From Myxococcales bacterium 68-20 (GTDB lineage: Bacteria; Myxococcota_A; Polyangia; Polyangiales; Polyangiaceae): a DNA stretch of 64,000 nt. This document shows, in pieces, positions 430 to 40,188 of the stretch (positions are counted from its first letter, which is position 1; each line of letters starts with the position of its first letter). The stretch covers positions 21,223-85,222 of the forward strand of contig MKVQ01000015.1 in assembly GCA_001899635.1 (NCBI GenBank), written 5' to 3'. Position numbers and translations under genes: made by a program. The notes under the pieces are model-generated. The model was given only the letters and a program-made list of their open reading frames with translations, had not been told where the DNA came from and ran no database searches.

Positions 430-465
430 CGCGGCGTGATGCTAGCGCGCCTCGTTCGCGACCGA

Positions 466-1869: not shown

Positions 1870-1997
1870 GACGGTTGCCCGTGCACACGTGATGCCGCTG
1901 GGATCGCTACATCGAGGGGCGATGATTCCAGGGCCGCTGCGTCTTTTTCAGCGAGCTCGCGCTCGGTCGCGGCGCCGGCTCGCGTACGCTCACGACC

Positions 1998-4185: not shown

Positions 4186-4218
4186 GCGCGACCGGTCGTG
4201 AGGATGTGAGCCGAGCCG

Positions 4219-4683
4219 TCAGGGCTCCGTCGCTTCGGCGTCGGAGCCCGCGTCTTTTTGCACGGGCGCGCCGGAGGGCCGCTTCGGCGGATCGCCGTAG
4301 TCGTTGCGCAGCTTGCGCGCGAGCGAGTCGACGAGCACCTGCTCGTGGTAGCCCGGCATCTGCGGGATCTGCACGACGACGCGCACCGCGCCAGTTTCCT
4401 TCGTGCGGATGAACTCCATCGATCCGGGCACCGCCTTCTTTCCGCTCTCGGGGGAGACGTAGTCGAAGAGCAAGTAGCCGGCGCCCTCGTCCTTCTCGGT
4501 GATCTTCAGCCCGAGATCGACGCGGACGAGCCGTGTGCCGGCGTTCCAGGTGCGGTCGTACCCGTACGAGGACTCGTACGAGCTCTTGGCGGACGCCTCT
4601 TCCGACTGCAAGGCGAGCGGGGCGGCCAACGCGAGCGCGACGCAGATCGAAGCAGCCCTGAGACCGTGCCGAGCGAGACGCAT
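4219..4683 (-). CDS. Small secreted protein of unknown function
   Basis: The chosen ATG at 4681-4683 gives 154 residues beginning with a clear signal peptide (MRLARHGLRAAS, then an Ala/Leu core ending near EEASA). The frame is open upstream for 29 more residues, but those are GC-poor, untypical and overlap a repeat, so the inner start is preferred. The mature part is soluble, with an aromatic SSYESSYGYDRTW segment, a beta-rich middle (LVRVDLGLKITEKD) and a charged C-terminus. I recognise no family. It is convergent with the FGE-like gene, 33 bases away, and divergent from the GntR regulator. Confidence 0.7.
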   Translation of the reverse strand: MRLARHGLRAASICVALALAAPLALQSEEASAKSSYESSYGYDRTWNAGTRLVRVDLGLKITEKDEGAGYLLFDYVSPESGKKAVPGSMEFIRTKETGAVRVVVQIPQMPGYHEQVLVDSLARKLRNDYGDPPKRPSGAPVQKDAGSDAEATEP

Positions 4684-7483: not shown

Positions 7484-8644
7484 TCAGCGGCTCTCGACGC
7501 GGAGCGACGCCGGTGGCTCGTTCGCGTCGGCAGCCTCTGCCGAGCCGTCGTTCGCCAGCACGGGCGACGCCGCGAGCGCCTTGAGCGCGGAGCGATCGAT
7601 CACCAGGAAGAAGGCGGCAGAGCCGATCGTCCAGACGAGCTGGATCGCGTAGAGGAGGAACACGTACGCCGAGCCTGCCCCGGTCACCACGTCCGTCGGG
7701 AAGTACATCGTCATGCCGGCGTAGATGCCCGCCTGGAAGACGCCGAGCAGGCCGGGCGGACCGGGGATCAGGATCGTGCAGCCGAGCATGCCCATGAGGG
7801 CGCAGGCCTCTCCGAACGTGATGGGCGTGCCATCGGCGTGGACGACGCCGCAGCCCCACGCGAGGAGCCACATCCCGAAGGCGTTGATGCCCCAATAGAG
7901 CGTCGTCTCGACGAGGAACCCGCCGGCGTCGCGCCCGCGCCCGAGGAAGTGGAGGCCGTTGGCGAGCTTCTCCGCGGTGTCCGCGAGCTTCTCGCCAAGC
8001 TTCTTCGACACGAGGCCGAAGACGGCGAGCGTCATGCGCCGCGCCCAGCCGCGCGCGAAGTAGAACACCGCGATCGTGACGAACGCGGTGGTGAAGACGC
8101 CGAGCATCACGAAGCCGCTCGTGCGCACCTGCGCGACGCTGATCGGCAAGCCGACCACGCGGCTCGGGAGCGGATCGATCGTCGGCACGAAGACGAGCGC
8201 GATCGCGAGCACGATCGACAGGTAGAGGCCGTCGACGACGCGCTCGGCGACGACGGTGCCGGTCGCCGACGACATCGAGATCTTGCCCTTCTCCCGCAGC
8301 ATGTACGGGCGGACGATCTCGCCGATGCGGAAGGGCATGAGCAGGATGGCCGCGAAGCCGATCCACGAGACGGCGAGGACTCGCTTCCGCGGGACGTCCG
8401 CGAAGGATCGGAGCAGGTACCGCCACCGGACGGCGCGGAAGTAGCTCATGACCCCGAGGGTCGCGAGGTACGCGGGGATGACCAGCCAGTTGACGTGGGC
8501 GAAGTTGCCGCCCTCTGGCACCAGTGTCAGGCCCCCCTTCTGCAGTGTGAAAACGATTCCCGCCGTGATGATGACCGAGGCGAGCAGCTTTGCGGCGTTG
8601 CGCCGAAGAAAGCCTTTTTGTTCTTGCGGCTTGTCCGTGGCCAT
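7484..8644 (-). CDS. Integral membrane protein, LPG-synthase-TM / UPF0104 family
   Basis: The 386-residue product has about eight hydrophobic helices with the family's characteristic RAVRWRYLLR, a long MPFRIGEIVRPYMLREK segment, a TVVAERVVDGLYL segment and the LIPGPPGLLGVFQAG loop. The family covers the flippase-like membrane half of MprF and many stand-alone proteins beside polysaccharide or lipid-sugar genes. The catalytic lysyltransferase half of MprF is absent, so this is not an aminoacyl-phosphatidylglycerol synthase. It lies 258 bases after the nucleotide-sugar dehydrogenase on the same strand, consistent with moving or assembling a lipid-linked glycan. The acidic, Ala-rich tail is cytoplasmic by inference. 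Confidence 0.85.
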   Translation of the reverse strand: MATDKPQEQKGFLRRNAAKLLASVIITAGIVFTLQKGGLTLVPEGGNFAHVNWLVIPAYLATLGVMSYFRAVRWRYLLRSFADVPRKRVLAVSWIGFAAILLMPFRIGEIVRPYMLREKGKISMSSATGTVVAERVVDGLYLSIVLAIALVFVPTIDPLPSRVVGLPISVAQVRTSGFVMLGVFTTAFVTIAVFYFARGWARRMTLAVFGLVSKKLGEKLADTAEKLANGLHFLGRGRDAGGFLVETTLYWGINAFGMWLLAWGCGVVHADGTPITFGEACALMGMLGCTILIPGPPGLLGVFQAGIYAGMTMYFPTDVVTGAGSAYVFLLYAIQLVWTIGSAAFFLVIDRSALKALAASPVLANDGSAEAADANEPPASLRVESR

Positions 8645-8902
8645 CGGTTTCCGGGAGGGGGCGAGGAGGCGTCTGCGCGGGCCGGGCTCCGGCCGAGCCC
8701 GCTGCGTATAGCACGTCTCGTACTCAGGGCGGGCGCGCCTGTGGGCAGCGCGCTCGAGCGGTGCTTGGCGCCTCCTGCTCAGTTCCGGAGGTGGGGGAGA
8801 GGAGAGTGCGAGGAGGGGGGAAGGCGAGGCGGCTCGATCGATCCGAACGTCCGCCCGTCGACGCGTCAGCGATCCCGGTCGACCGGCGCTCGGCCGGCCG
8901 CC

Positions 8903-10183
8903 TCAGAGGCTCCAGTAGTGGATTGAGCGGCCCAGCTTCGAAGCCTGGGTATGGAAGGCGCTCTTCACGTCGACGAAGACGCCGCCGTTCCGGAGCGAAG
9001 CGGCGAGCTTGTCGACGCCCATGTCGAGGTACTGCTTGTGCGAGACGGCGAACACGAGGCCGTCGAGGGCGCGGAGCTCGTCGAGGGAGGAGAGCTCGAG
9101 GCCGTACTCGTGGTGGGCGTCCTTGGAGTTCGCGAGCGGGTCGTGGATCATCGCGTTGATCCCGTACTCCCTCAGCTCCGTGATGATGTCCGGCACCTTG
9201 CTGTTCCGGATGTCGTTCACGTCCTCCTTGAAGGAGAGGCCGAGGACACCGATGCGCGCGCCCTTCACGGGGATGTCCGCGTTCACGAGCATCTTCACGA
9301 GGCGCTGGGCGACGAACTTGCCCATGCCGTCGTTGATGCGGCGACCCGCGAGGATGACCTCCGGCTGGTAGCCGAGCTGCTGGGCCTTCATCGTGAGGTA
9401 ATACGGATCGACGCCGATGCAGTGGCCGCCGACGAGGCCGGGACGGAACTTGAGGAAGTTCCACTTCGTCCCCGCCGCCGCCAGGACGTCCATCGTGCGG
9501 ATGCCCATGCGATCGAACACGATCGCGAGCTCGTTCATGAGCGCGATGTTGAGGTCGCGCTGCGTGTTCTCGATCACCTTCGCCGCCTCGGCGACCTTGA
9601 TCGAGGGGGCGCGGTGGACACCTGCGTCGATGATCGCGCCGTAGGCTGCGGAGACGCGCTCGAGCGTATCGGCGTCTTCGCCCGAGACCACCTTCGTGAT
9701 GCGTTCGAGGGTGTGCTCCTTGTCACCGGGGTTGATGCGCTCCGGCGAATAGCCGAGCTTGAAGTCCTTCCGCTCGAGGCCCGAGACCTTGACGAGCTCC
9801 GGCCCGCAGACGTCCTCGGTCACGCCGGGATAGACCGTCGACTCGTAGACGACGACGTCGCCCTTCTTGAGGACCTTGCCGACGGTCCGCGACGCCATCA
9901 CGACGGGCGTGAGGTCGGGGAGGTGGTTCTCGTCCACCGGAGTGGGGACCGCGACGACGAAGAAGGTGCAGCTCGCGAGGTCGTCCACGTTGCTCGTGAA
10001 CTGGAGCGTCGAGGACTTGAGCTCCGCTTCGGCGACCTCCAGGTTCCGGTCGAAGCCGCGCGCGAGCTCCGCAACTTTCTCCTCGTGGATGTCGAAGCCG
10101 ACCGCGCCTGGGAACTTGCGCGCGAAGGCGAGCGCGACGGGAAGCCCCACGTATCCGAGACCGATGATCCCGATCTTCTCCAT
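8903..10183 (-). CDS. Nucleotide-sugar (UDP-HexNAc-type) 6-dehydrogenase
   Basis: The 426-residue product is full length for the UDP-glucose/GDP-mannose dehydrogenase superfamily. It has an N-terminal NAD fold GLGYVGLPVA, VPTPVDENHLPDL, STVYPGVTED and GYSPERINPGDK, the Lys-bearing AAKVIENTQRD (Lys202), the catalytic Cys255 in GGHCIGVDPYYLT and the C-terminal FKEDVNDIRNSK. The ERINPGD and HCIGVDPYYL patterns fit the WbpA/TviB group, which oxidises UDP-GlcNAc or UDP-GalNAc to the uronic acid for capsule or O-antigen. It probably supplies an acidic sugar for surface polysaccharide together with the nearby PHP phosphatase and membrane protein. Confidence 0.92.
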   Translation of the reverse strand: MEKIGIIGLGYVGLPVALAFARKFPGAVGFDIHEEKVAELARGFDRNLEVAEAELKSSTLQFTSNVDDLASCTFFVVAVPTPVDENHLPDLTPVVMASRTVGKVLKKGDVVVYESTVYPGVTEDVCGPELVKVSGLERKDFKLGYSPERINPGDKEHTLERITKVVSGEDADTLERVSAAYGAIIDAGVHRAPSIKVAEAAKVIENTQRDLNIALMNELAIVFDRMGIRTMDVLAAAGTKWNFLKFRPGLVGGHCIGVDPYYLTMKAQQLGYQPEVILAGRRINDGMGKFVAQRLVKMLVNADIPVKGARIGVLGLSFKEDVNDIRNSKVPDIITELREYGINAMIHDPLANSKDAHHEYGLELSSLDELRALDGLVFAVSHKQYLDMGVDKLAASLRNGGVFVDVKSAFHTQASKLGRSIHYWSL

Positions 10184-10331
10184 GTGGGCGTGGTTTCTAT
10201 CAGGCCCTCCGGTGAGGAGCTAGACCGCGTGTAGGACCGTACGCAGCACGTGTTCGCCGAAAACCGATCGGTGTGGCGAGCGCATTCGGTCGCGCGAGCG
10301 CAACGGCGACGTCGGGCCGTGACCGAAGCGG

Positions 10332-11147
10332 TCAGAGTCCGAGGATGCCTTGCGGCCCATCTCTCAGGAGCCGCACGGCCTCCGTCGCGCCGACGCGCTT
10401 CTCGAGTGCTTCGATCGCCTCGACGACGACGGCGGCATCCGAAGGCCGATGCGCGTCCGAGCACGCGGCCTCATAGGCTTCCTCGTCGAGGAGCTTCTCC
10501 GCAGCCTTCCTCGAAGCTCGTCCGTATTTTCCGACGAGCGCGCAGACGTCGAGCAGCAGGCAGGCCCCGGCGTCGAGGAGCGGATCGAGACAACGGTCGT
10601 CCTTCCACACCGGCTCGTAGCGCTCGGGATGAGCGAGGACCGGCCGGAGTCCCGCACGCGCGAGGTCGAAGAACCGATGCTGGAGCTGCGGAGGGAATCC
10701 TCTTGGGTTGAGCTCGACGAGCACGCCCCGCAAGCGGCGCGCGCCCGGCGGGGCGGGGGCACCGCCTCCGGGTCCGCCTCCGCCTCCGCCTTCACATCCA
10801 CTCTCGCGGTGGCGCCGGCCCTCGGTCCCGAGATCGGGGTAGGGGAGGCCCTGTCCCTTCACGAGCCGGCCGAAGACGACGTCATCGAGGAAATGTTCGC
10901 TCGATAGGTGGACGTCCGGCAGCTCTTCGCGCCGTTCGACCAGGTGCGGGCGCATCGAGGCGAAGGCGTGCTCCAAGGCCGGCCGGTCGTTGTCGAACAT
11001 GCCGGGGCGCATGTGGGGCGTGGCGACGACGACGTCGAATCCCGCCGCGCGGAGGCGCCGGAGGAGATCGATGCCTTCCTCCGGCGTCTTCACGCCGTCG
11101 TCGATGCCGGCGATCCAATGGCAGTGCAGGTCGACGAAGCCTCTCAC
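10332..11147 (-). CDS. PHP-domain tyrosine-protein phosphatase (CpsB/CapC/YwqE type)
   Basis: The product has 271 residues from a GTG. It shows the PHP metal motifs in order: DLHCHWIAGIDDG (residues 6-18), ATPHMRPG, a HPERY segment and CSDAH near the C-terminus, which bind a trinuclear metal centre. The family dephosphorylates BY-kinases that control capsule export. Residues around 117-135 form an unusual Gly/Pro/Ala-rich insert with a run of six Gly where other members have a short loop. The neighbours (sugar dehydrogenase on the same strand, MglA-like GTPase divergent 47 bases away) support a polysaccharide role. No BY-kinase lies in the window. Confidence 0.87.
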   Translation of the reverse strand: MRGFVDLHCHWIAGIDDGVKTPEEGIDLLRRLRAAGFDVVVATPHMRPGMFDNDRPALEHAFASMRPHLVERREELPDVHLSSEHFLDDVVFGRLVKGQGLPYPDLGTEGRRHRESGCEGGGGGGPGGGAPAPPGARRLRGVLVELNPRGFPPQLQHRFFDLARAGLRPVLAHPERYEPVWKDDRCLDPLLDAGACLLLDVCALVGKYGRASRKAAEKLLDEEAYEAACSDAHRPSDAAVVVEAIEALEKRVGATEAVRLLRDGPQGILGL

Positions 11148-28071: not shown

Positions 28072-28152
28072 TCGGTCGAGCTCGTTCGAAACGGGCGTCG
28101 CGGGCGTGCGACGAGGTCACCCGATCGCCGGACATTGGCCTATTCTGCGCGC

Positions 28153-28632
28153 GTGTTCCTTCGCTGGTTGCCCAAGGCCGCTTACGGCATCGTCCACGAG
28201 GCGACGCGTCACATCCTGAAGCGCCCGGTGGTCGGGATCGTCGCGGTCGCGCGGACGCCCGACGGTCGACTCCTCCTCGTCCGCCGCGGCGACAACGGGA
28301 TGTGGGGGTTGCCTGGCGGGACGCTCGAGTGGGGCGAGACGTTCGTGACCGGGCTCGGCCGTGAGCTCGAGGAAGAGGCTGGCGTCGTCGACCACGAGGT
28401 CGTGCGCGTGCTCGGCGCGTGGTCCGATCCGATGCGCGATCCGCGCTTCCACGCCGTGACGATCGGGGTGGAGTGCAAGGTCGCGCCTCCGGTCAAGCCG
28501 CCGAAGAATCGCCTCGAGATCCTGGAGGCGAGGCTCTTCGACGATGCGGACGTCCCCGCGCGCCTCGCGTTCGGTGCCGAGGACATCGTGAAGGCCGCGC
28601 GCAACGGCTCGACGAACGGCGTCCTCGAGTAG
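28153..28632 (+). CDS. Nudix hydrolase
   Basis: From GTG 28153 the product has 159 residues; a TTG at 28135 would add six. A perfect Nudix box lies near residues 60-82: GGTLEWGE, seven residues, then RELEEEAGV, giving the Mg-binding Glu cluster. These enzymes cleave nucleoside diphosphates linked to another group. The N-terminal helix (FLRWLPKAAYGIVHEATRHI) is basic and amphipathic. The specificity cannot be read from the sequence. It lies 81 bases after the alpha/beta hydrolase on the same strand and may be co-transcribed. Confidence 0.9.
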   Translation: MFLRWLPKAAYGIVHEATRHILKRPVVGIVAVARTPDGRLLLVRRGDNGMWGLPGGTLEWGETFVTGLGRELEEEAGVVDHEVVRVLGAWSDPMRDPRFHAVTIGVECKVAPPVKPPKNRLEILEARLFDDADVPARLAFGAEDIVKAARNGSTNGVLE

Positions 28633-28883: not shown

Positions 28884-30467
28884 ATGACGCGCGTCCCCCG
28901 GCCACTCGCCTGCGAGCCCACACGTCCCTCCATCGGAAGCGGCGTTCACGAGGCGCTTTCGCCGGAATCGGCGGCCTCGGTCGTCGAGCGCATCGAGAGG
29001 GGCGACGCGGACGAGGTCGTCAGTCTGCCGCGGCCTTCCCGGAGGAGCCCGTGCCCCACGTGCGGTAGCCTCGAGGAGCCACGGCAGAGCTCGTCAGATC
29101 CTCGCAACCTCTCGTGCGTAGACGGGGTTTCGGAAGCCCCTTCGTCTCAGTCCTCGGACTCGGGCCTGCCTCTCACGGAGCGAAAGATGGATCGGATCGG
29201 CGAATACCTCGTGCGGCGCCTCATCGGCGAGGGCGGGATGGGCAAGGTCTACGAGGCGGAGGAGCGCCTCTCGAAGCGGCGTGTCGCGCTGAAGGTCCTC
29301 CGCCCCGAGCTCACGCGTCACGAGGAGGGGCGCCGACTCTTCCTCAACGAGATGCAGATCCTCGCCCACCTCGAGCATCCGAACCTCGTCCGGAGCCTCG
29401 CCTCGATGGAAACCGACGGCCAGCTCGTCATGGTCCTCGAGTATCTGCACGGGCGGACGCTGCGGCAGGAGCTCACGCGGCGCGGCGCGCTTCCGTGGCA
29501 AGAGGCGCTCGAGCACGTCGTCCGGATCGCGGAGGCGCTCACGGTCGCGCACGAGCAGGAGCCGCCGATCGTGCATCGCGATCTGAAGCCGGAGAACGTC
29601 ATGCTGACGGTCGCCGAAGGGGCGGCCGAGGACGCTGCTCCCGCGGGGCTGAAGGTCATGGACTTCGGCATCGCCAAGGTGCTCGAGGGGATGCACGGCA
29701 CGAACACGCAGAGCATCGGGACGCTCCAGTACATGAGCCCCGAGCAGATCGATGCGCGAACGATCGATGCGCGGAGCGACCTCTACTCGCTCGGGCTGAT
29801 CTTCTACGAGATGATCGCCGGCGAGCCGCCGTTCTCCTCGGCGTCGCCGCGCGAGCTCTTGAACCTCCAGTGCACCGCGCCCGCACCGGCACTCGATGAC
29901 GAGGTGCGGAGCGGTCTACCGCGCGGCGTGGAGGAGATGCTGTTCGCGATGCTCGAGAAGAAGCCGGAGTCGCGTCCAGCCTCCGCCCGGGAGGTCTCGG
30001 AGCGCCTCTCGCTCTTCCGTGCTGCGGGGGCCTCGTCGGCAGCGGGGCGATCGTCGCGTGCCCGTTCGACGCCGTCGGGCGAGGGGGCGCGGGTGAGCGC
30101 GGCGCCGCCGACACCCCGGATGGCGGGCGCGCCGGAGCGTTCCACGGGCGAGCGCGCGCCCAGCTCGGGCTCGAGCCGTGACGGCGGGACGACGCGCGAT
30201 GAGCGCGGCGAGGGCGACGAGCCGAAGAAGGAGCGCCCGCGTACCGACACGATCGCTCTCGTCGAGGCGAACGCGAGCAAGGCGCGCGAGGTGCCGACGT
30301 GGCTTGCGGTGATCGCCATCGTCGCCCTCTCGCTCGTCGCCGGCATGACGACGTACCTCGTCCGATTGAAGACGACGAGCGATGCGCAGCCGGCCGCGAC
30401 GGCGACCGCGGAGGGACGCGCCGGCAGGAGCATCGGGGCCGACGAAGCCTCGAGCACGAAGCGCTGA
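28884..30467 (+). CDS. Transmembrane Ser/Thr kinase heading the cytochrome operon
   Basis: The 527-residue product carries a complete kinase domain (about 105-370): LIGEGGMGKVYEAEE, VALKVL, HRDLKPEN, MDFGIAK, GTLQYMSPEQ and DLYSLGLIFYEMIAGEPPF. An inner ATG at 29187 with GGAG upstream is an alternative start just before the domain, but the N-terminal 101 residues have normal codon use and contain Cys pairs (PCPTCG). After a Ser/Arg/Glu-rich linker, one helix (about 472-493, WLAVIAIVALSLVAGMTTYLV) leaves only a short periplasmic tail. The next gene, a pseudokinase-cytochrome fusion, starts 14 bases later, so the kinase probably regulates that redox module. Confidence 0.92.
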   Translation: MTRVPRPLACEPTRPSIGSGVHEALSPESAASVVERIERGDADEVVSLPRPSRRSPCPTCGSLEEPRQSSSDPRNLSCVDGVSEAPSSQSSDSGLPLTERKMDRIGEYLVRRLIGEGGMGKVYEAEERLSKRRVALKVLRPELTRHEEGRRLFLNEMQILAHLEHPNLVRSLASMETDGQLVMVLEYLHGRTLRQELTRRGALPWQEALEHVVRIAEALTVAHEQEPPIVHRDLKPENVMLTVAEGAAEDAAPAGLKVMDFGIAKVLEGMHGTNTQSIGTLQYMSPEQIDARTIDARSDLYSLGLIFYEMIAGEPPFSSASPRELLNLQCTAPAPALDDEVRSGLPRGVEEMLFAMLEKKPESRPASAREVSERLSLFRAAGASSAAGRSSRARSTPSGEGARVSAAPPTPRMAGAPERSTGERAPSSGSSRDGGTTRDERGEGDEPKKERPRTDTIALVEANASKAREVPTWLAVIAIVALSLVAGMTTYLVRLKTTSDAQPAATATAEGRAGRSIGADEASSTKR

Positions 30468-30481
30468 CGGGCGGCGTCGCC

Positions 30482-33400
30482 ATGATGATGGGCGGGAGCC
30501 GGCAGCGTCCGGGCGCAGGCGAGGAGCTCGACGCGGTCGGCCGCGCGAGGCGCTTCGCATGCGCGCTCGAGACCGGATCACCTGCGGAGCTGTGGTGCTT
30601 CGAGAGGAGCGACGCCGCGCTCGTGCAGCGGCTCGCGTCCTTCGGAGACGAGGGCCTCGGCGGCTTCGCAGCGGGCTGGGGCGAGGACGAGGAAGGCGTC
30701 TTCGCGCTGCGGCGCGTCCCGTCGAAGACCGTCGACTCACTCGTACGAGGAGAGCAGCTCGATGGCCTGACCGCGCTCGCGAAGGTGCGCGATCTCGCGC
30801 GTGCGCTGGCCGCCTGCGAGAAGAAAGGCGTCTTCCCTGGGCCGCTCCGTCCGGCCGAGATCGCGCTCGGCAGCCCGGGGCGCGCGGACGCGTTCGTGCT
30901 GGCGGACGGATGGATCCGCGTGCTGCTCGGCGCAGGTCACGGCGCCCACGGCGGCAGCGTCGCGTCCGCGCCGTCGCCGCGCTGGACTCCGCCCGAGCAG
31001 GCCGGCGGTGCGCCGTGGGACAACGCGGCCAACCGCTACGTCCTCGGGCTCGTCGCGTATCGCCTCCTCGCGGGCGCGCATCCGTTTGCGGGGATCGGCC
31101 TTCGTGACGCGATGGCCGCCGCATCGTCACCGCCGCCGCCGTTCGACGAGACGATCGCGCGCACGCTCAAGCCGGGCATCCAGAGCTTCGTCCTCGCGAT
31201 GCTCGACCCGGAAGGGGCGGTGCGTCCGTCCAGCGCGATCGCGATCGTGCGGCGATGCGAGGAGCTGATGCGCGACGCTCCTCTACGCAGCGAGTCGCGC
31301 GCCGATACGCAGCGAGAAGCGGGCGGGGGAAAGACGGGAGCGGGCGTGGGCTTCGATCTCCTCCCGCCCGGCGCCGCCCCCGGCCCGTCGGCACGTCGGG
31401 ACGACGCTCGAAGCAACGACGGTCGCGAGTCTCTCACGCGGGACGACCGAGGCTCGCTGCCGGCCGCCCTTGCTCGGCGGGGAAGGATCGCGCTTGCCAT
31501 CGGGCCGATCGCGGTCGGTCTCGCTATTGCGGGGGCGGGGCTCGCGGCGTCGCGGCGACCGGAGCCTCCTCCGCAGCCGCCGGCACGAGCGCTCTCGCAG
31601 GCGCCCCTCCGGAAGACGACCGCGGAGTCGTGCGCCCCGTGCCACGCGCGGCAGGTCGCGGAGTGGTCGCGCTCGGTGATGGCGCACTCGGTGAAGAGCC
31701 CGCTCTTCGGTGCGCTCGAGAGCGTCGTACAGGAGCAGGTCGGGCGCGACGATCGCTGTCCGAGTGGAGCCGGCGTCCTTCGTAAGGCCTCTGGTGACGT
31801 CTGCCGTGACGAGAAGACCGGGCTCGTGCTGACCGGGACCGGCGGCGAGCACTGGTGCGTCAACTGCCACTCCGCCGGAGACAACCTCGGCTCGACCGTG
31901 CCGGCGTGGAGCGCCGGCGCCAACGCACAGGCGCGCCGACCGCTCCGTGACGTGCTCACGCCTCAGGCGATGGAAGGGATCTCCTGCGCCGTGTGCCACC
32001 AGGCGATTGGACCGGTGCACGGCGGAAGTGCGTACCAGGGCAACCCGACCTGGACGTCGCCGGTGACGGGCGCGGTCTTCCGGATGCGCCCAGAGGACGG
32101 GATCGGCGTACGCGGGATCGGCAACAGCGGCTATCTCCTCGATCCGAACGCGCTCCTCCTCCTCCGGTCGTCATCGCTAGGCCCCGGTGGACCCGGCGAT
32201 CCGATCGTGCACCGCCGCACCCCCGAGGACACCGCGCGCTATCTCAGGTCGAGCGAGTTCTGCGGCGCCTGCCACGACGTCCGGCTCTTCGGCACCGACT
32301 CGATCGGTGTGCGCGAGCGTGGCGAGCACTTCAAGCGACTGCGCAACGCCTATTCGGAGTGGAAGTCGTGGGCCGACGCCGAACGTTTGGCGGGGCGTCG
32401 GGTGGCGAGTTGTCAGGACTGCCACATGAGCCTGTACCCTGGCGTGTGCGTGAAGGACGGGGAGGGCAGCGGCACGAGCGGCAAGAGCGGCTCGCGCTCG
32501 GGGACGAACGGGTGTCCTCCGGGCTTTCATTTCGAGGCTCGCGCGCCGGGGGAGAAGGCGCGCGGGATGATCGCGGCGTCGTCTTCGGAGCCGCGGCCGA
32601 TCAGCTCGCACTGGTTCACGAGCGTCGATCTCCCGCTCGCGCTCGAGTTCCCCGACGCCTGGGCGAACGAGACGGCGCTCGATTCGAGCGGCGTGCCCCT
32701 CGGGCTCGAGGCGCGACGCGAGCAACTCCTTCGGCACACTTTCGCGTTCTCGATCGCGAAGGGCACGCGGGTGGGGTCGCGGATCGAGATCCCCGTCGAG
32801 ATCCAGAACGTGGGCGCAGGGCATCGCGTGCCCGCGGGCTTCAGCCAGGAGCGCGAGACCTGGGTCGAGATGACGGTACGCGACGGGCGCGGCGACGTCG
32901 TCTACGAGGTCGGCAAGATCGCGAGCGACGAGTCGGACCTCAGGGACAAGTCGTTCGTGCGGATGACGACGCGCGACGACGTGAAGGACTTCAAAGGCAG
33001 GCCCCTCGGTGTGTTCGGCGCGGACATCGTCGACGGGCCCGACGTCCCGCAGTGGAGCCCGAACCCGACGTTCGGCGGGACCACGTTCCGCGGCAAGGGG
33101 CTCGTCAACATGCAGAACGGTTTCCTCCGCTGCGTGAAGTGCATCGGCGTCATCGATGCGCAGGGCCGCTGTCAGCCCGGACCGGGGCAGGGAAGGACGC
33201 GCGCCGATCGGTTCGACGACGGCGTCTACGACATCGACACGGGCGAGTGCCGCTCGAACCTCACCGGGACGAACGCGTTCTTCGAGACGTACTTCCCCGT
33301 CGGCGCGCTCGACGCCGATCGCGGCATCGCGAAGGCGCCGGACGCGATCCTCGATCAGCGCTCCGCGCCGCCCGGCGTCGTCCTCCGCTACATCTACGAG

Positions 33401-33610
33401 ATCGACGTGCCCGGTCGATCGGGGCCGTTCACCGTCCAGGCGCGTCTCCGCTTCCGGCCATTCCCGCCGTTCTTGCTGCGCGCGTTCGCCGACTACGAGG
33501 CACGCAAGGCCGCGCAGGGGCTTCGTCCGAGCGGGGCGCAGATCACGGGGGCCATGTTCGCGCGTAACCACCCCATCGACCTCGCCGAGGCGAGCGCGAA
33601 GATCGACTGA
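30482..33610 (+). CDS. Pseudokinase fused to a transmembrane helix and a five-haem cytochrome c
   Basis: The product has 1042 residues from ATG 30482 (ATGs at 30485 and 30488 also fit). Residues about 20-265 align with a Hanks kinase C-lobe but lack catalysis: GPLRPAEI stands for HRDLKPEN, ADG for DFG, RWTPPEQ for the APE region, and NRYVLGLVAYRLLAGAHPF for subdomain IX. One membrane helix lies near 334-356. The exported part has CXXCH at 384, 459, 502, 594 and 644, with a VAEWSRSVMAHSV segment like that in cytochrome c554-type proteins. A beta-rich domain (about 730-1042) follows, with VGAGHRVPAGF and a non-haem RCVKCI. It would place haems in the periplasm and the pseudokinase in the cytosol. 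I know of no family with this fusion. Confidence 0.9.
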   Translation: MMMGGSRQRPGAGEELDAVGRARRFACALETGSPAELWCFERSDAALVQRLASFGDEGLGGFAAGWGEDEEGVFALRRVPSKTVDSLVRGEQLDGLTALAKVRDLARALAACEKKGVFPGPLRPAEIALGSPGRADAFVLADGWIRVLLGAGHGAHGGSVASAPSPRWTPPEQAGGAPWDNAANRYVLGLVAYRLLAGAHPFAGIGLRDAMAAASSPPPPFDETIARTLKPGIQSFVLAMLDPEGAVRPSSAIAIVRRCEELMRDAPLRSESRADTQREAGGGKTGAGVGFDLLPPGAAPGPSARRDDARSNDGRESLTRDDRGSLPAALARRGRIALAIGPIAVGLAIAGAGLAASRRPEPPPQPPARALSQAPLRKTTAESCAPCHARQVAEWSRSVMAHSVKSPLFGALESVVQEQVGRDDRCPSGAGVLRKASGDVCRDEKTGLVLTGTGGEHWCVNCHSAGDNLGSTVPAWSAGANAQARRPLRDVLTPQAMEGISCAVCHQAIGPVHGGSAYQGNPTWTSPVTGAVFRMRPEDGIGVRGIGNSGYLLDPNALLLLRSSSLGPGGPGDPIVHRRTPEDTARYLRSSEFCGACHDVRLFGTDSIGVRERGEHFKRLRNAYSEWKSWADAERLAGRRVASCQDCHMSLYPGVCVKDGEGSGTSGKSGSRSGTNGCPPGFHFEARAPGEKARGMIAASSSEPRPISSHWFTSVDLPLALEFPDAWANETALDSSGVPLGLEARREQLLRHTFAFSIAKGTRVGSRIEIPVEIQNVGAGHRVPAGFSQERETWVEMTVRDGRGDVVYEVGKIASDESDLRDKSFVRMTTRDDVKDFKGRPLGVFGADIVDGPDVPQWSPNPTFGGTTFRGKGLVNMQNGFLRCVKCIGVIDAQGRCQPGPGQGRTRADRFDDGVYDIDTGECRSNLTGTNAFFETYFPVGALDADRGIAKAPDAILDQRSAPPGVVLRYIYEIDVPGRSGPFTVQARLRFRPFPPFLLRAFADYEARKAAQGLRPSGAQITGAMFARNHPIDLAEASAKID

Positions 33611-33612
33611 GC

Positions 33613-35901
33613 ATGCACGATCGCGTCGGCGTGTCATCGCCTCCCTGGCCCGAGGTCGTGTGGGACGCGCCCATGCTCCGCGGCCTCGACACGCGTGCGC
33701 GTCAAGAGATCGAGGCCGCGGGGAGCGTTCGCGTGCTCCGTGCGGGAGAGGTCCTCTTCGAGCGGGGAGACCCCGCCGATGCCCTTCACGTCGTCGCCTC
33801 CGGCGCCGTCACGCTCTCGGGCGTCCGTCGAGGAGAGGCAGAGCCGGTCGTGATCCGGCGCGCTCGAAGGGGTGACGTCCTCGGCGAGGAGGCTACCGTC
33901 GCCGCGTTCTCGACCCGGCAGCTCGAGGCACGCTGCGAGGAGGACGCGCTCGTCGCCGAGGTCCCGCTCGTCGTCCTGAAGCGCGCGGCGTCGCGGGCCG
34001 GAGGCGCGGAGCTGATGGCGAAGGTCGAACGCGCGCTCCGTCGTGCGGCCACGCTCGATCTCCTCCGCACGACGAGCTTCACGCGCGGCCTTCCCGACAG
34101 CGACCTCGACGAGCTGCTCGACGCCGCACGTCACGTCCACGTCGCGCGCGGAGAACACGTCTACCGCGAGGGCGACGTCGCCACCGAGGCGTTCCTCGTC
34201 GCGGACGGGCTCCTCCAGGCGCAGACCACCGACGATGGGAAGCCGCGCGTCGAGGCGTACCTCGGACGCGGCGATCTGTTCGGCGACGAGGAGCTCGTCG
34301 AGCTGGAGCCGCGGCGAGTCGCGGTCGTGGCGGGCGGGCCCGCGTGGCTCGTCGCCATCCCGCGCGCCGTCTTCGTCGTCGTGGCGCGGCGAAACGCTGG
34401 TCGGATCGACGCCGCGCGCCGCCTCCTTCGTTCTAGCGCGGTCGCGGACCAGCGCCTTCGCCCGGACGCGCAGACGACGGCGCACGTGTTCCGCGATCTC
34501 TACCGGATGCGGGTCGCGCGCTCGCTCCTCGTGATCGATCAAGACGCGTGTATTCGCTGCGGTCATTGCGCATGGAGCTGCGCCGACGTCCACGACGACG
34601 GCGTGAGCCGGCTCGTCCGGCGTGGAGACAAGATCGTCGTCCGTGACGGCAGCGCTCCGGACGACGGGACGAACGCGAGCACGGCGCCGCTCCTCGTCCC
34701 GAACAGCTGCCAGCACTGCAAGAACCCGAGCTGCATGATCGACTGCCCGACGGGCGCGATCGGTCGCGACGCTCGCGGCGAGGTCTTCATTCGCGAGGAC
34801 CTGTGCACGGGCTGCGGGAGCTGCGCGAAGGCCTGTCCGTGGGACAACATCCAGATGGCGCCGCGCCGCGATCGTGCCGCGTACCCGGCGGTCGCGGTGA
34901 AGTGCGACCTGTGCAAGGGCAACGACGGCGGACCGGCGTGCGTCGCGTCCTGCCCGACGCAGGCGATCGCCCGGATCGATCCGAACGTGGCGCTCGTCGA
35001 GCTGAGGATCCCGGGCAAGCCTCGCAAGAGCGCCTCCACACAGTCGATCTTCCCGCCGCGCGCGCCCGCATGGCCGTGGGCGCTGGGCAGCGGTCTCGCC
35101 GGGATCGGTCTCGCGGCTGTCCCGCTCGGGCGATGGACGAGCGGCGTCCTCTCGGGTCTGCTGGTCGCGGTGCTCGTGGCCTATTCGCTCGGCAAGCGCG
35201 TGCGCGGGCCGATCGCGAGGCTCCGCGGTCGTGCGCCGGTCGCGCGATGGCTCTACATCGGCCACCTCTCCGTCGGAGCGTTCGCCTGCGGTATCGTCGC
35301 GGTGCACGCGGCGGGGCGCGCGCCGTCGAGCGCGGCCGGCGCGCTGTCGATCGCGATGGGGCTCGCCGTCATCACCGGAGCGATCGGGGCGGCGATCTCG
35401 GCGATCGTGCCGCGTGCGCTTTCGCGGGTGGAGCGGAAGAGCGTGCTGCCCGAGGAGCTGGCGGCGCGGCCGAAGGAGATCGACGAGAAGGTCTTCGCGA
35501 CCCTCTCGGGCAAGAGCGAGCTCGTGAAGACGCTCTTCGTGAAGGCGCTCCGCCCGTACCGGCGCTCGGCGCTCGGGCCCGCGGCGCTGGTCCTCTCGCG
35601 TCGCACGCTTCGTGACGAGGAGAAGGCGGTCCGTGCGCGCATCGATGCGCTCACCGGTGGAAAGAAGGGCGAGGCGCTCGCGGGCATCGACGACCTCGTG
35701 CGCCTCGTGGTCGAGCATCGCGCCGTCCGCGCACAGCGAGCGCTCACGTGGACACTGCGCGGATGGATCGTGCCGCATCTCGCGGCGACGGCGGCGGTGG
35801 TCGTCCTCCTCGCGCTCCACGTCATCGGGGTGAGCCGGTCGGCGCTCGCGCAGCGCGCGCCGGAGCCGACGCGTGCGGTGACCAGCGAGGCACGGCGATG
35901 A
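33613..35901 (+). CDS. Dual cNMP-binding-like, four-[4Fe-4S] membrane protein with HX13H helices
   Basis: The product has 762 residues and starts 2 bases after the cytochrome gene. Residues about 20-140 and 145-270 are two Crp/cNMP-type beta-barrels (AGEVLFERGDPADALHVV, RGEHVYREGDVATEAFLV). Residues 313-450 hold four clusters as in DmsB/PsrB-type electron-transfer subunits: CIRCGHC (313), CQHCKNPSCMIDCP (366), CTGCGSCAKACP (398) and CDLC (431). About five helices follow. Two carry His pairs exactly 13 residues apart (551/565 and 722/736), the pattern that holds bis-His haem b in ferric-reductase/NOX membrane domains. It probably links membrane haem to cytosolic Fe-S. The stop overlaps the next start by 4 bases. 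Confidence 0.92.
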   Translation: MHDRVGVSSPPWPEVVWDAPMLRGLDTRARQEIEAAGSVRVLRAGEVLFERGDPADALHVVASGAVTLSGVRRGEAEPVVIRRARRGDVLGEEATVAAFSTRQLEARCEEDALVAEVPLVVLKRAASRAGGAELMAKVERALRRAATLDLLRTTSFTRGLPDSDLDELLDAARHVHVARGEHVYREGDVATEAFLVADGLLQAQTTDDGKPRVEAYLGRGDLFGDEELVELEPRRVAVVAGGPAWLVAIPRAVFVVVARRNAGRIDAARRLLRSSAVADQRLRPDAQTTAHVFRDLYRMRVARSLLVIDQDACIRCGHCAWSCADVHDDGVSRLVRRGDKIVVRDGSAPDDGTNASTAPLLVPNSCQHCKNPSCMIDCPTGAIGRDARGEVFIREDLCTGCGSCAKACPWDNIQMAPRRDRAAYPAVAVKCDLCKGNDGGPACVASCPTQAIARIDPNVALVELRIPGKPRKSASTQSIFPPRAPAWPWALGSGLAGIGLAAVPLGRWTSGVLSGLLVAVLVAYSLGKRVRGPIARLRGRAPVARWLYIGHLSVGAFACGIVAVHAAGRAPSSAAGALSIAMGLAVITGAIGAAISAIVPRALSRVERKSVLPEELAARPKEIDEKVFATLSGKSELVKTLFVKALRPYRRSALGPAALVLSRRTLRDEEKAVRARIDALTGGKKGEALAGIDDLVRLVVEHRAVRAQRALTWTLRGWIVPHLAATAAVVVLLALHVIGVSRSALAQRAPEPTRAVTSEARR

Positions 35902-38069
35902 GCGATCGCGCGCGGGCGAAGGCTCCGAAGGCGGTCCGCACGAGCGACGTCGCTCGGGTGCGCACGCTGGCGCTCGCCGCGGCCGGCGCCGCGGCCGGGG
36001 TCGCGATCGCCGTCGCCGTCGACCGGACACCGCTCGGGACCGAGCGGCCAATCGCGCGGCCGCACGCGAAGGTGGCGTGTGGGGCGTGTCATGCGGAGAC
36101 GTCGACGTCGGTGGCTTCGCTTGCGCCGGAGCCACCGCATCATGTCGCCGCCGCGTGCAAGAGCTGCCACGGCGGCTCGCATGTCTCCACACGTGCGGCT
36201 CACCGGAGCCTCGCCGCGAAGGGCGAGCTCACGTGCGCGACATGCCACGCGCAACATGCGGGTGGGCAGGGCGTGACGTTCGAATCGGATCGCGTCGTCC
36301 GCTGGGGGGCGGGGAGCGAGGTGGCAGTCGGCCCTCCACGCGGGGGCGCGCCGGGCTCGGGCGCGCTTGCGAACGGAACGACGGTGCCGCTCGTATCGCT
36401 CGCGGCCTGCGCGAAGTGCCACGACCCGTCACGAGCGGCCGATCCGATCTCGGCCTGCGTCCCGGCGAAGACGCGAGCGGACGCGGACGCGCTGCTCCGG
36501 AACACGCCGTCGCAGTGCTTCGACGAGCACACTCGCCTCGATGACCTGCGCGGGCCGGCTGCCGGTGGGGAGAGGCGCGCGGGGCCGAGCGCGCCGGTGT
36601 GCGCATCGCAACACGGCGGTGCGCGCTTCGTCGCGTGGGAGGCGGCGCGCGAGATCGGCGCCACCACGGCTTGGGTCGCGTCCGAGAAACCCGACGCCCT
36701 TCCCTGGACGCCCGCCGCGGGCGCGGTCGCGGGCGCGCTGGTGCTCGCCGCCGGCGCAGCGGCCGCCGATCGCCGGAGAAGGCGCTCCGCCGAGAAGCCG
36801 AGGTCACCGGCGCCCGTCGTGCCTGCTCCGCGGAAGCGGCTGCCGATGATCGATCCGACGACGTGCCTCGGCTGCTACGCGTGCGTCGATGCGTGTCCCT
36901 TCGACGTCCTCACGATCGACAAGTACGTCGCCGTCGTGGCGCGGCCGGAGGAGTGTTGCGGCGTCGTCCTCTGCGAGCAAGTTTGTCCGAACGGTAGCCT
37001 CCGTGTCGAGGACGGCGAGCCGATCGTCGATCGCCCGGCGACCGACGAGCACCTCGAGAGCCGCGATGTGCCCGGCCTCTTCCTCGCGGGTGACCTCACG
37101 GGCCTTCCGCTCATCAAGAACGCGATCAACCAGGGCGCGCGCGCGGTCGATCGGATCGCGGCGACGCTTCCGCGCCGCCGGACCGAGCCGATCGACCTCG
37201 TCGTCATCGGCGCCGGGCCGGCCGGTCTGAGCGCGGCGCTCCGTGCCAAGGAGAAGGGCCTCTCGTGCGTGGTCGTCGAGCAGGCCACGGTCGCCGCGAG
37301 CATCAAGAGCTTTCCTCGCGACAAGATCGTCCACGACCCTCCGCTCGATCTCCCGGTGGAGGGGGAGCTCTGGCTCGAGCAGGCGACGAAGGAGGAGCTC
37401 CTCGCGCAGTGGACGCGCATCGTCCGCGCGCGCGGGCTCGACGTGCGCGAGGGACACCGCGTGGTCGACCTCGCGAAGACCGGGGACGGCTTCGTCGTGA
37501 CGACGGAGCGGGGGGACGAGGCCTCCGCGGAGACGAGCCATCGCGAGATTCGCGCGGCGCGCGTGGTGCTCGCGATCGGTCGGCGCGGTACGCCGCGGCG
37601 ACTCGATCTCGAGATCGAGCGCGGGGCCGAGGACCGACTCGCCTACGCGCTCGCCGATGCGCGCAGCTTCGCGGGAAAGCGCGTCGTCGTCGTCGGCCTC
37701 GGGGACAGCGCGATGGAGGCGGCGCTCGCCCTCGCCCGGCAGCCGGGGACCTCCGTCACGATCTCGTACCGAGGGACGCGCTTCGCTCGTGGGAAGGCGA
37801 AGAACGTCGCCGAGCTCGAGAGCCTCATCACCCAGAAGAAGCTGAAGGTCTTCTTCGAGACGGTTCCGGTCGCGATGACGAAGTCCAGCGTGACCCTCGC
37901 CGGTACCGGGCCGCATGCAGGCCGTCGCAGCCTCGGCGCCGACGCGATGCTCGTGCTCATCGGCGGGGTACCGGCCTGGGACCTGCTGACGCGCGCCGGC
38001 ATCCGGCGTCCGAGCGTGGAGCGTGCTCCGTCGCCCTTCGCGCCCGATCTCACGGCCGACGAGGGATGA
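35898..38069 (+). CDS. Four-haem cytochrome c - ferredoxin - permuted flavoprotein fusion
   Basis: The product has 723 residues from the overlapping ATG. A helix near 18-41 and another near 275-295 bracket an exported segment with CXXCH at 61, 87, 113 and 171. After the second helix an Arg-rich stop-transfer is followed by two cluster motifs: CLGCYACVDACP (323) and CCGVVLCEQVCP. Then comes a TrxR-like FAD/NAD(P) domain in permuted order. The usual C-terminal motif (LFLAGDLTG, Gly398-Asp399, then NAINQGARAVDRI) precedes the FAD site GAGPAGLSAA (438) and the pyridine-nucleotide site GLGDSAME (600). The redox CXXC of thioredoxin reductase is absent. It would pass electrons between NAD(P)H and periplasmic haems. 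Confidence 0.92.
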   Translation: MSDRARAKAPKAVRTSDVARVRTLALAAAGAAAGVAIAVAVDRTPLGTERPIARPHAKVACGACHAETSTSVASLAPEPPHHVAAACKSCHGGSHVSTRAAHRSLAAKGELTCATCHAQHAGGQGVTFESDRVVRWGAGSEVAVGPPRGGAPGSGALANGTTVPLVSLAACAKCHDPSRAADPISACVPAKTRADADALLRNTPSQCFDEHTRLDDLRGPAAGGERRAGPSAPVCASQHGGARFVAWEAAREIGATTAWVASEKPDALPWTPAAGAVAGALVLAAGAAAADRRRRRSAEKPRSPAPVVPAPRKRLPMIDPTTCLGCYACVDACPFDVLTIDKYVAVVARPEECCGVVLCEQVCPNGSLRVEDGEPIVDRPATDEHLESRDVPGLFLAGDLTGLPLIKNAINQGARAVDRIAATLPRRRTEPIDLVVIGAGPAGLSAALRAKEKGLSCVVVEQATVAASIKSFPRDKIVHDPPLDLPVEGELWLEQATKEELLAQWTRIVRARGLDVREGHRVVDLAKTGDGFVVTTERGDEASAETSHREIRAARVVLAIGRRGTPRRLDLEIERGAEDRLAYALADARSFAGKRVVVVGLGDSAMEAALALARQPGTSVTISYRGTRFARGKAKNVAELESLITQKKLKVFFETVPVAMTKSSVTLAGTGPHAGRRSLGADAMLVLIGGVPAWDLLTRAGIRRPSVERAPSPFAPDLTADEG

Positions 38070-38488
38070 CGTTCGACGCCGACCTCGACGAGCGGGCAGG
38101 CGTCGACGTGCATCCGGCTGGGGTCGGCCCAAGCCGCTCGTGGTCTGCCGTGTCACACTCCCTACGGAGGCGCGGTCGAATGATCCTCGTGTCGACAGCC
38201 GCGGACTGGCTCGCTCCCGACGCGCTGGTGGTCGGCTACCTGACGATCCGCAACGACGGGCTCGCCTTCCAGACCGTCGTTCCGAACTCGGCGCGAGCGT
38301 TCGATGTCGGAATCGAGCGGATCGAGCGCTTCGACTTGCCGAGCTCGAGGGTCGGCACGTCGAGCGCGATCGAGATCGTCGTCCGCGGCGGTGCCCCGCT
38401 CCTGTTCCTCGTCCCCGACCGGAGGGTGTGCGCGCTTGCGCTCGAGCAAGCGATCGGGCTCTCTGCCGCGCGCGGCGTCTATCGCTGA
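38066..38488 (+). CDS. Small soluble protein closing the redox operon
   Basis: An ATG overlapping the previous stop by 4 bases gives 140 residues; a later ATG at 38180 would give 102. The C-terminal 100 residues are beta-rich (DALVVGYLTIRNDGLAFQTV, AIEIVVRGGAPLLFLVPD) and end in a helix (VCALALEQAIGLSAA). That order of strands plus a C-terminal helix resembles a PH/GRAM-like fold; this is inference from pattern only. The coupling argues that it belongs to the electron-transfer system, perhaps as an adaptor. No Cys or haem motif is present. Confidence 0.65.
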   Translation: MTFDADLDERAGVDVHPAGVGPSRSWSAVSHSLRRRGRMILVSTAADWLAPDALVVGYLTIRNDGLAFQTVVPNSARAFDVGIERIERFDLPSSRVGTSSAIEIVVRGGAPLLFLVPDRRVCALALEQAIGLSAARGVYR

Positions 38489-38622: not shown

Positions 38623-40188
38623 ATGAAGCTGAAAACCACCGCCATCCTCGCTGCTTGCGGCGTCTTTCTCTCCGCGGCCGGGGCCTTTGCGATCCCGGTC
38701 GGCCCGTCTGGCACCGTCACGGCGGACCCCTCGGCGACGAACGCGATCAAGGCCGCCGGGGGCGAGGGCTGGGAGAGCGGCGCGCGGATCACGGCCGGAG
38801 ACACGCTCCTCGTCGATGCACGGCTCGGGCACGCGTCGGTATCGAAGTCCTCCAGCGGAGAGACCTATCTCTTCGCGCAGGTCACGGCCTCGGACGCCAC
38901 GGTCTCGTCCTCGCCCTCGCCCATCGCGCCGATGAACCTCGCGGTCGTCATCGATCGATCCGGGTCGATGAAGGGCGAGCGCATCGCCAACGCGATGAAC
39001 GCCGCCGTGGCGGCGCTCGAGCGGATGCGCGACGGCGACAGCATCGCCGTGGTCAGCTTCGACACCGCGGCCCAGGTCGTCGTCCCGCCGACACGGGTGA
39101 GCGCCGGCAACCGCTCCGCGATCGAATCGGCGATCCGCTCGATTCGTCTCGGCGGCGACACCTGCATCTCGTGCGGCCTCGAGGAGGGAATGCAGCAGCT
39201 CGCGCTCACGAGCCTCGGCGGCGATCGGATCAATCGGATGATCCTCCTGTCCGACGGCGCCACCAACGCCGGCGTGCGCGACATCGGGGGGCTTCGTTCG
39301 ATGGCGGGGCGCATGTTCGGTCGCGGCGTCACGATCTCGACCATCGGCGTCGACGTGGACTTCGACGAGAAGATCATGGCCGCGATCGCGAGCGAGGCGA
39401 ACGGTCGTCACTACTTCGTGGCGAACGCGTCGGGCCTGCCGGCGGTCTTCGGTCAGGAGTTCGACGACCTCCTCGCGTCGGTCGCCAAGGAGACGGAGCT
39501 CGCGATCGAGCTCGCCCCCGGCGTCGAGGCCGTCGAGGTCTTCGATCGGAGCTTCCGCCGCGAGGGGAACAAGCTGATCGTCCCGTTCGGTACATTCAGC
39601 TCGAAGCAGGAGAAGACGGTGCTCGTGAGGCTCCGCGTGCCGACGGACCGCGACGGGGATCAGCCCGTGGCCGATCTGAAGCTCGCGTTTCGCGACCTCG
39701 TGAAGAAGACCGACGGTGCCTGCAACGGCTCGCTCGCCGTCGCCGTGAAGAGCGACGGTTCGGAGCAGAAGGACCTCGATCCGTTCGTCGCGGCGCGCCT
39801 CGAGCGGAGCCGCACGGCGCAGACGCTCACCGAGGCGAACAAGCTCTTCGAGGCCGGCCGCATCGGAGAAGCACGCGCGAAGCTCGCTGCTCGCAAGACG
39901 GACCTGGACAAGAGCAAGTCGAGCGCGCTCGCCCTCGCGGCCGCGGCGCCGAGCGCGGCTCCGCGCCGACCCGCACGCGCCCTCGACCGCGACTTCGCCG
40001 ACCAGGCCGCTGCCGTCGAGGAGGCCGAGCAGCACTTCGCGCCGGCGCCCGTCGCGGCGGCGCGCCCTGCGAGCCCGGGCGCGCTCGGCGGCGGCGGGTT
40101 CGCGCAGCCTCCGCCCGCGCAGACCTCACGCGAAGGCAAGGCGCAGGTCCGCGCCAACCAGGAGAAGGCTTCGAGCTTCGGCTTCTGA
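38623..40188 (+). CDS. Secreted VWA-domain protein
   Basis: The 521-residue product has a signal peptide (MKLKTTAILAACGVFLSAAGAFA). A von Willebrand A domain spans about 104-285 with an intact MIDAS: Asp111-Ser113-Ser115 in VVIDRSGSMKG, the Thr in RLGGDTCISCG and the Asp of LLSDGATNAG. VWA domains bind proteins through a metal ion. Residues about 300-380 form a beta domain (VIT-like partner, inferred). A helical segment with ANKLFEAGRIGEARAKL follows, then an Ala/Pro-rich tail ending ASSFGF. A promoter of its own is likely, because 134 bases separate it from the redox operon. It is probably periplasmic or surface-located; partner unknown. Confidence 0.88.
   Translation: MKLKTTAILAACGVFLSAAGAFAIPVGPSGTVTADPSATNAIKAAGGEGWESGARITAGDTLLVDARLGHASVSKSSSGETYLFAQVTASDATVSSSPSPIAPMNLAVVIDRSGSMKGERIANAMNAAVAALERMRDGDSIAVVSFDTAAQVVVPPTRVSAGNRSAIESAIRSIRLGGDTCISCGLEEGMQQLALTSLGGDRINRMILLSDGATNAGVRDIGGLRSMAGRMFGRGVTISTIGVDVDFDEKIMAAIASEANGRHYFVANASGLPAVFGQEFDDLLASVAKETELAIELAPGVEAVEVFDRSFRREGNKLIVPFGTFSSKQEKTVLVRLRVPTDRDGDQPVADLKLAFRDLVKKTDGACNGSLAVAVKSDGSEQKDLDPFVAARLERSRTAQTLTEANKLFEAGRIGEARAKLAARKTDLDKSKSSALALAAAAPSAAPRRPARALDRDFADQAAAVEEAEQHFAPAPVAAARPASPGALGGGGFAQPPPAQTSREGKAQVRANQEKASSFGF

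Follow-up and report, generated by a model that had tools for sequence, protein, structure and literature searches.

Control of bacterial electron conduits is attributed mainly to changes in gene expression. In eukaryotes, the NADPH oxidase NOX2, which passes electrons from NADPH through FAD and two b-haems across a membrane, is switched by phosphorylation. Among bacterial multihaem cytochromes, one pentahaem group, to which ExtKL and Gsu2801 belong and which has an immunoglobulin-like domain, is described as structurally like Thermochromatium c552 (PMC11976967), a protein that others are there said to have related to archaeal cytochrome nanowires (PMC11976967). An operon from Myxococcales bacterium 68-20 (genome of 11.9 Mb) can be compared with the last two; no description of its own system was found in open-access full text. 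With NOX2 the likeness is one of analogy only; the genes described here (G1-G5) have no ferric-reductase Pfam match, and Fe-S and c-haem sites are added.

The window, i.e., the whole stretch of DNA analysed, is 64,000 nucleotides long. An earlier note had proposed that five genes in it form a kinase- and nucleotide-controlled transmembrane electron conduit, and its coordinates, intergenic distances and domain assignments were reproduced (Pkinase, a cNMP_binding match with two stretches, Fer4_11, Pyr_redox_3 and Fer4, with five CXXCH motifs in G2 and four in G4). The features are as follows.

28884..30467, + strand: G1, Hanks-type Ser/Thr kinase, active-looking (Pfam Pkinase 2.3e-53)
29211-29990: kinase domain of G1
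30306-30362: C-terminal transmembrane (TM) segment of G1 (TM in 24/25)
30482..33610, + strand: G2, predicted pseudokinase-TM-pentahaem cytochrome
30524-31276: predicted pseudokinase part of G2 (kinase fold against PknB)
31487-31543: TM segment of G2 (TM in 28/28)
31631-32425: five c-haem motifs of G2 (CXXCH)
32741-33607: strand-rich C-terminal part of G2
33613..35901, + strand: G3, tandem CNB/Fe-S/putative di-haem-b protein (Pfam cNMP_binding 4.3e-28, Fer4_11 3.2e-12)
33646-34437: tandem CNB domains of G3 (cNMP_binding with two stretches)
34549-34953: 16-Cys Fe-S domain of G3 (Fer4_11)
35131-35853: TM part of G3 with four invariant His
35898..38069, + strand: G4, tetrahaem/ferredoxin/flavoprotein (Pfam Pyr_redox_3 8.2e-31, Fer4)
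35964-36020: first TM segment (TM1) of G4
36078-36422: four c-haem motifs of G4 (CXXCH)
36711-36767: second hydrophobic segment of G4
36846-36995: ferredoxin of G4 (Fer4)
37044-37169: permuted C-terminal segment of the FAD domain of G4
37191-38024: FAD/NAD(P)H domains of G4
38066..38488, + strand: G5, small orphan ORF outside the conserved unit
38623..40188, + strand: VWA-domain protein, a conserved neighbour (Pfam VWA 3.7e-19)

G1-G4 are tightly packed (28884-38069): 14 bases separate G1 from G2 and 2 bases separate G2 from G3, whereas G3 and G4 overlap by 4 bases; a second 4-base overlap lies at the G4/G5 junction. G5 has no Pfam or NCBIfam match, is found in one of 58 genomes (its own) and was rejected as a member of the unit, its place after G4 being taken by the VWA gene in most of the sibling loci examined. 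Of the proposed five-gene operon, four genes thus stand, usually accompanied by VWA, and the fifth falls away. The same note had set the locus apart from Rnf, Dms/Psr and Mtr-type porin conduits, and this holds: G3 scores 40.6 bits against the rnfB model (cut-off 68.7), and the Pfam matches of G1-G5 and VWA contain neither a molybdopterin catalytic subunit nor, at E 0.01, a beta-barrel family. Pfam revealed no catalytic terminal reductase among the operon's products, and no energy-coupling subunit was recognised. A NUDIX hydrolase gene (window 28135-28632) lies directly 5' of the operon; such a gene is also upstream of it in L039, L041 and L046.

The cluster is patchily distributed. Long G4 orthologues were found in 15 of 58 genomes, the own genome included (some in two pieces or cut at contig ends); these 15 comprise 7 of the 12 that belong to the genus. 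The G2 haem part occurs in 20/144 genomes of the class. The G3 profile matches 86 of 377 genomes at 1e-20, many of these rows being CNB domains only, and a near-whole match was counted by hand in 28 of the 377. When contigs were scanned with the G4 profile, 63 loci were obtained, of which 52 have the Polyangia form, 9 come from Acidobacteriota and 2 are weak others. Titles of the Polyangia form name Labilithrix, Polyangium, Sorangium, Minicystis, Enhygromyxa, Plesiocystis and Myxococcales or Polyangia MAGs, a few reading just "Deltaproteobacteria" or "bacterium", and Labilithrix MAGs are the best named-record matches to the locus, records of the own genome possibly being excluded.

Where the earlier note had allowed for scattered homologues in relatives, the opposite was found, and the gene order holds over several genera. 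Across the 52 Polyangia-form loci (L095-L146), counting those with room for the neighbour in question, G3 lies directly 5' of G4 in 43/46, G2 upstream of G3 in 31/37 and G1 upstream of G2 in 23/27; VWA follows G4 within 600 bp in 34/48 and is present somewhere in 20 of the 23 loci of at least 20 kb. At most junctions in sibling loci, neighbouring genes are a few bases apart or overlap by as little. Departures include two Enhygromyxa loci (L121, L138), in which G1 and VWA adjoin G2 on the opposite strand; Sorangium-type loci in which G3 and G4 are some 5 kb apart (L131, L133, L144), one of them (L144) with an opposite-strand gene between G2 and G3; two loci with no G1 in view (L114, L116); one in which a related kinase lies downstream of G4 (L113); and a Minicystis locus (L119) with no G2 beside G3 and a G2-like stretch about 9 kb away on the opposite strand, cut by the locus end. 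Frames are split in L096 and L112, and L147 shows no G3 at its contig edge. The conserved unit consists of G1-G4, usually with VWA. Between G3 and G4 of L051 sits a 1030-amino-acid protein with a weak VWA match (7567-10659), and L133 has a similarly placed protein of 1087 amino acids with no Pfam match.

By sequence, G1 is a Hanks-type Ser/Thr kinase that looks active: K137, E156, HRD 231-233, N238 and DFG 260-262 are invariant in 11/11, and HRD and DFG are present in 29/29 linked kinases. The own genome is rich in kinases (150 matches scored of 238 candidates), so that G1 might be where it is by chance. This is unlikely, because of its linkage and because the linked kinases group together in a tree: all 29 of them, counting a fragment at a contig edge and the kinase downstream of G4 in L113, make up an exact clade (local support 0.881) that excludes the 16 G2 pseudokinases and the 22 further kinases compared. 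The N-terminal part of G2, present on 27/28 proteins, appears to keep the kinase fold while the catalytic residues are lost, making it a predicted pseudokinase. Residues 7-264 of the predicted model superpose on PknB with Z 21.0 and rmsd 6.2 over 234 residues (VIA-align); the HRDLKP position of kinases reads, by eye, FPGPL.P, with FPG invariant in 11/11; an HRD-like motif is found in 0/29 and a DFG-like string in 3/29.

The haem part of G2 carries five CXXCH in 28/28 full-length proteins (the alignments exclude the G003 copy, L040/L096, with its many broken frames, and G2 cut by contig ends), and His 402, 577, 616, 710 and 781, each kept in at least 26/29, could be distal ligands. With the pentahaem (PHC) group of ExtKL, Gsu2801 and c552, this part of G2 shares its five CXXCH and the strand-rich part that comes after them; G2 differs in its N-terminal pseudokinase and TM segment, and sequence similarity is not significant. 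In Foldseek, Thermochromatium c552 (5ze8) ranks fifth (2.1e-10, TM 0.58 by target), with a haem-part model of low confidence, whereas the 50 matches listed by VIA-align for the G2 model are kinases and 5ze8 is absent among them. The best 60 of 946 matches in a PDB profile search of A6 are likewise kinases. The G2 profile reaches E 0.64 against 5ze8, and the ExtKL model scores a weak 22.7 bits on G2 (cut-off 250). Because model confidence is low and sequence similarity non-significant, the predicted PHC-type fold is a lead only. The MtrC/MtrF-type outer-membrane cytochromes are approached through a weak domain II/IV match (22.8 bits, below the cut-off of 30), but their porin partner is not recognised here, and G2 has an N-terminal TM segment and pseudokinase.

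In G3, sixteen Fe-S Cys and H551, H565, H722 and H736 are invariant in 46/46 homologues from two phyla, with identities down to 23%. The His form two H-x13-H pairs on predicted helices (542-566 and 719-747; AlphaFold model, pLDDT 86.4), a spacing also seen in cytochrome b, and two stacked b-haems in the helix bundle are therefore the natural reading. VIA-align of the model listed CNB chains (CRP/FNR-type, PKA/PKG and channels) and so barely probed the haem-b part. The Fe-S part resembles the Fe-S subunits of DMSO reductase/formate dehydrogenase-type enzymes (DmsB, HycB; among the best 60 of 303 PDB rows), from which G3 differs in its fusion to CNB and haem-b parts, no molybdenum catalytic subunit being found in the operon. 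Tandem CNB domains are shared with the PKA regulatory subunit and PKG (profile E of about 1e-28 to 1e-40 for the whole sequence, among the same best 60 of 303); G3, in contrast, is a redox protein and retains both ligand residues in CNB-A only. Judged on these residues, CNB-A has the Glu and Arg of a predicted ligand-binding CNB domain and CNB-B does not. In CNB-A, Glu92 is kept in 45/46 (37/38 of the Polyangia form, 8/8 Acidobacteriota) and Arg102 in 44/46 (36/38 and 8/8), and the Acidobacteriota cassette reads FGEMSVL..(P)R.AT in 5/8 and is similar in the other three. In CNB-B of the Polyangia form, Asp replaces Glu in 33/38 and Arg is kept in 30/38; both residues are missing in 8/8 Acidobacteriota. 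In the own genome, six matches to class III cyclases exceed the cut-off.

G4 combines at least four CXXCH in 45/45 proteins (four in 38/45, five in 7/45) with a ferredoxin and a flavoprotein. Its eight ferredoxin Cys and four CXXCH are kept in 13/13 aligned sequences, TM1 is present in 45/45, and a second TM segment exceeds the hydropathy threshold in 28/44. The best solved relatives of the flavoprotein by sequence are Bdr/YpdA-type reductases and ferredoxin-NADP reductase (best 60 of 258), the FAD/NADPH domains matching 7a76 at 5.9e-31 and 3ab1 at 1.8e-24. Compared with these YpdA/Bdr and TrxR-type enzymes, G4 is permuted, fused to ferredoxin and c-haems, and lacks a conserved flavoprotein Cys: no Cys is invariant after residue 363 in the 13 aligned sequences, whereas the flavoprotein of a YpdA or thioredoxin reductase would have a redox-active one.

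The sequence comparisons indicate that the G4 flavoprotein is circularly permuted. A profile built from the unpermuted FAD domains of L168, L169, L170, L173 and L177 was matched in swapped order in 18/18 proteins tested, its end (257-282 to 304-324) preceding its start (2-4 to 233-270). The match consists of two pieces in 13/18; the second part is split by an insertion in L133, L148, L149 and L155, and L055 has one further, insignificant piece. The short piece, which reads by eye ES..VPG...PLIKN..NQG in the window and in L173, is weak in some proteins (0.0029 in L166, 0.00036 in L058, 0.00022 in L162). Pfam agrees, in that the Pyr_redox_2 match to G4 breaks off at 250 of 291, while that to L173 is complete. 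That an NADPH-type flavoprotein should be circularly permuted in nature is notable alone, and here the unpermuted relatives are fused to the same kinds of partner.

G2 was not detected in the Acidobacteriota or in other related Myxococcota clusters. In Acidobacteriota the G3-like gene adjoins a gene for a protein with a Forkhead-associated (FHA) domain and seven CXXCH, followed directly or after a gap (in L149 occupied by a PIG-L gene) by the ferredoxin-flavoprotein; in L148 and L154, FHA, eight CXXCH, ferredoxin and flavoprotein form a single protein. The FHA domain thus sits on the counterpart of the G4 cytochrome. Pfam finds it in 3/3 Acidobacteriota proteins tested (4.6e-16, 3.9e-15, 7.9e-12), and our own model, built from six of the eight proteins found there, has L150 and L151 as independent cases and matches weakly in L158, L160 and L161. 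In other Myxococcota, the neighbours of G3-like genes encode proteins that combine seven CXXCH, ferredoxin and permuted flavoprotein with FHA domains, one to four in number; Pfam confirms FHA in L159, L162, L163 and L166 (on the opposite strand in L166), and L159, L162 and L163 have several further multihaem frames. In the five loci that supplied the unpermuted domains, a single protein contains the FAD, ferredoxin, CNB and Fe-S parts, and in L168, L173 and L177 it adjoins a haem-b-like gene (16-35 bits, own model) and an FHA-decahaem gene. Across loci of this and similar types, Pfam places FHA on three of the six multihaem proteins tested; it is absent from those tested in L172, L174 and L175, and L172 has a separate two-FHA gene. 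Since relatives without G2 carry FHA on the G4-type cytochrome, phospho-signalling parts appear, from sequence, to have joined the redox core more than once and at different cytochromes.

The anatomy, the conservation of ligand residues, the linkage, the permutation and the FHA domains on relatives' cytochromes are established computationally. Of the proposal in the earlier note, this conservation backs the cofactor inventory from FAD through [4Fe-4S] and haem b to haem c, the segments in the inner membrane, both signalling inputs and the linkage in an operon. The permuted flavoprotein, the H-x13-H pairs and the relatives with FHA are additions to that note. Because ligand residues for each electron step are conserved, the gene order is kept and the CNB-A residues are retained, the locus probably encodes a conduit in the inner membrane that is driven by NAD(P)H, leads to multihaem cytochromes in the periplasm and is gated by phosphorylation and a cyclic nucleotide. 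How the cofactors are filled, whether a complex forms, which way electrons run, and what the donor, gating and acceptor are, we infer as follows. G1-G4 would form one inner-membrane electron-transfer complex, in which the G4 flavoprotein would oxidise NAD(P)H on the cytoplasmic side and pass electrons through the G4 ferredoxin to four [4Fe-4S] clusters and then two stacked b-haems of the G3 helix bundle. The b-haems would carry them across the membrane to the periplasmic tetrahaem part of G4 and the membrane-anchored pentahaem domain of G2, whose c-haems would deliver them to a periplasmic or envelope acceptor. The TM segments of G1, G2 and G4 sit where this topology requires. Flow or assembly would be controlled from the cytoplasmic side, with G1 phosphorylating, or docking on, the pseudokinase domain of G2 and CNB-A of G3 binding a cyclic nucleotide; where relatives lack G1 and G2, FHA on the other cytochrome would read phosphorylation instead.

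The main rival is a redox sensor feeding the kinase, in which the chain would report the periplasmic or cytoplasmic redox state through the pseudokinase, with phosphorylation and not respiration as its output. We regard this as unlikely, if a serious contender. In its favour, the kinase gene is linked to the pseudokinase gene in 23/27 loci and adjacent to it but divergent in two more, the five haems and five candidate distal His of G2 leave no obvious open catalytic site, and the operon has no recognised terminal reductase. A sensor that needs nine c-haem motifs, four His for b-haems and sites for some six Fe-S clusters would, however, be costly; FHA domains, as borne by the relatives, are readers and not writers of phosphorylation, and several relatives lie among other multihaem cytochromes.

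Electrons might also run inwards, with periplasmic donors such as Fe(II) or a c-type cytochrome reducing NAD(P)+ or ferredoxin inside. Multihaem conduits may run in either direction (PMC10734462), and a 10-motif "Forkhead-associated protein", mentioned in the main text of that source only in Table 1, occurs in 27/87 iron-oxidising Gallionellaceae (PMC10734462) and recalls, by its description, the FHA-decahaem proteins found here. Against this, the potential of NAD(P)+ as an acceptor is low, an energy-coupling subunit was not recognised, and most of the named hosts are aerobic heterotrophs. We consider inward flow improbable. A constitutive oxidoreductase with pseudokinase, CNB and FHA as mere scaffolds is very improbable: scaffolding pseudokinases and ligand-free CNB domains exist and CNB-B is degenerate, but CNB-A keeps its Glu and Arg in at least 44/46, a catalytically intact-looking kinase travels with the pseudokinase, and FHA, another phospho-module, is fused to the relatives' cytochromes.

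If an outward conduit gated in this manner is correct, bacterial outward electron flow would be switched post-translationally; with a kinase as partner, and with redox subunits that themselves bear a pseudokinase or FHA domain and a nucleotide receptor, gating would be direct and fast, and a role would be found for one of the very many kinases in these genomes. Whether these loci make up an undescribed class of signal-gated transmembrane conduits in Myxococcota and Acidobacteriota (perhaps also in iron-oxidising Gallionellaceae), with a pseudokinase- or FHA-bearing cytochrome, a CNB receptor and a permuted flavoprotein in common, is close to an even call.

Signalling and cytochrome genes also lie around the more distant loci. 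Downstream in L148 (11539-14022) are a PDEase_II-like gene (3.8e-14; Lactamase_B_2 1.3e-13) and an FHA-GAF-class III cyclase gene, and L154 has a PDEase_II-like gene about 2.8 kb downstream; the PDEase_II-like genes of these two scanned loci score about equally well against the general family of the beta-lactamase fold. Upstream in L148 lies an LVIVD-repeat protein with five CXXCH (59-3049), then genes with 4, 8 and 9 CXXCH, and in L153 ResB and cytochrome c assembly genes (1244-4356) lie upstream of the Acidobacteriota conduit genes. A 12-motif protein with a RoxA-like cytochrome domain stands beside the G3-like gene of L174 (9438-12209). The looser relatives L053-L061 have a ferredoxin-flavoprotein, mostly beside frames with 11-23 CXXCH, and in several a haem-b-like gene; these counts for neighbouring ORFs come from stop-to-stop frames, some overlapping, and are possibly inflated. 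Near such ferredoxin-flavoprotein and haem-b-like genes lie a 607-amino-acid frame with 23 CXXCH in L055 (6993-8813) and a 542-amino-acid frame with 20 CXXCH in L057 (6519-8144).
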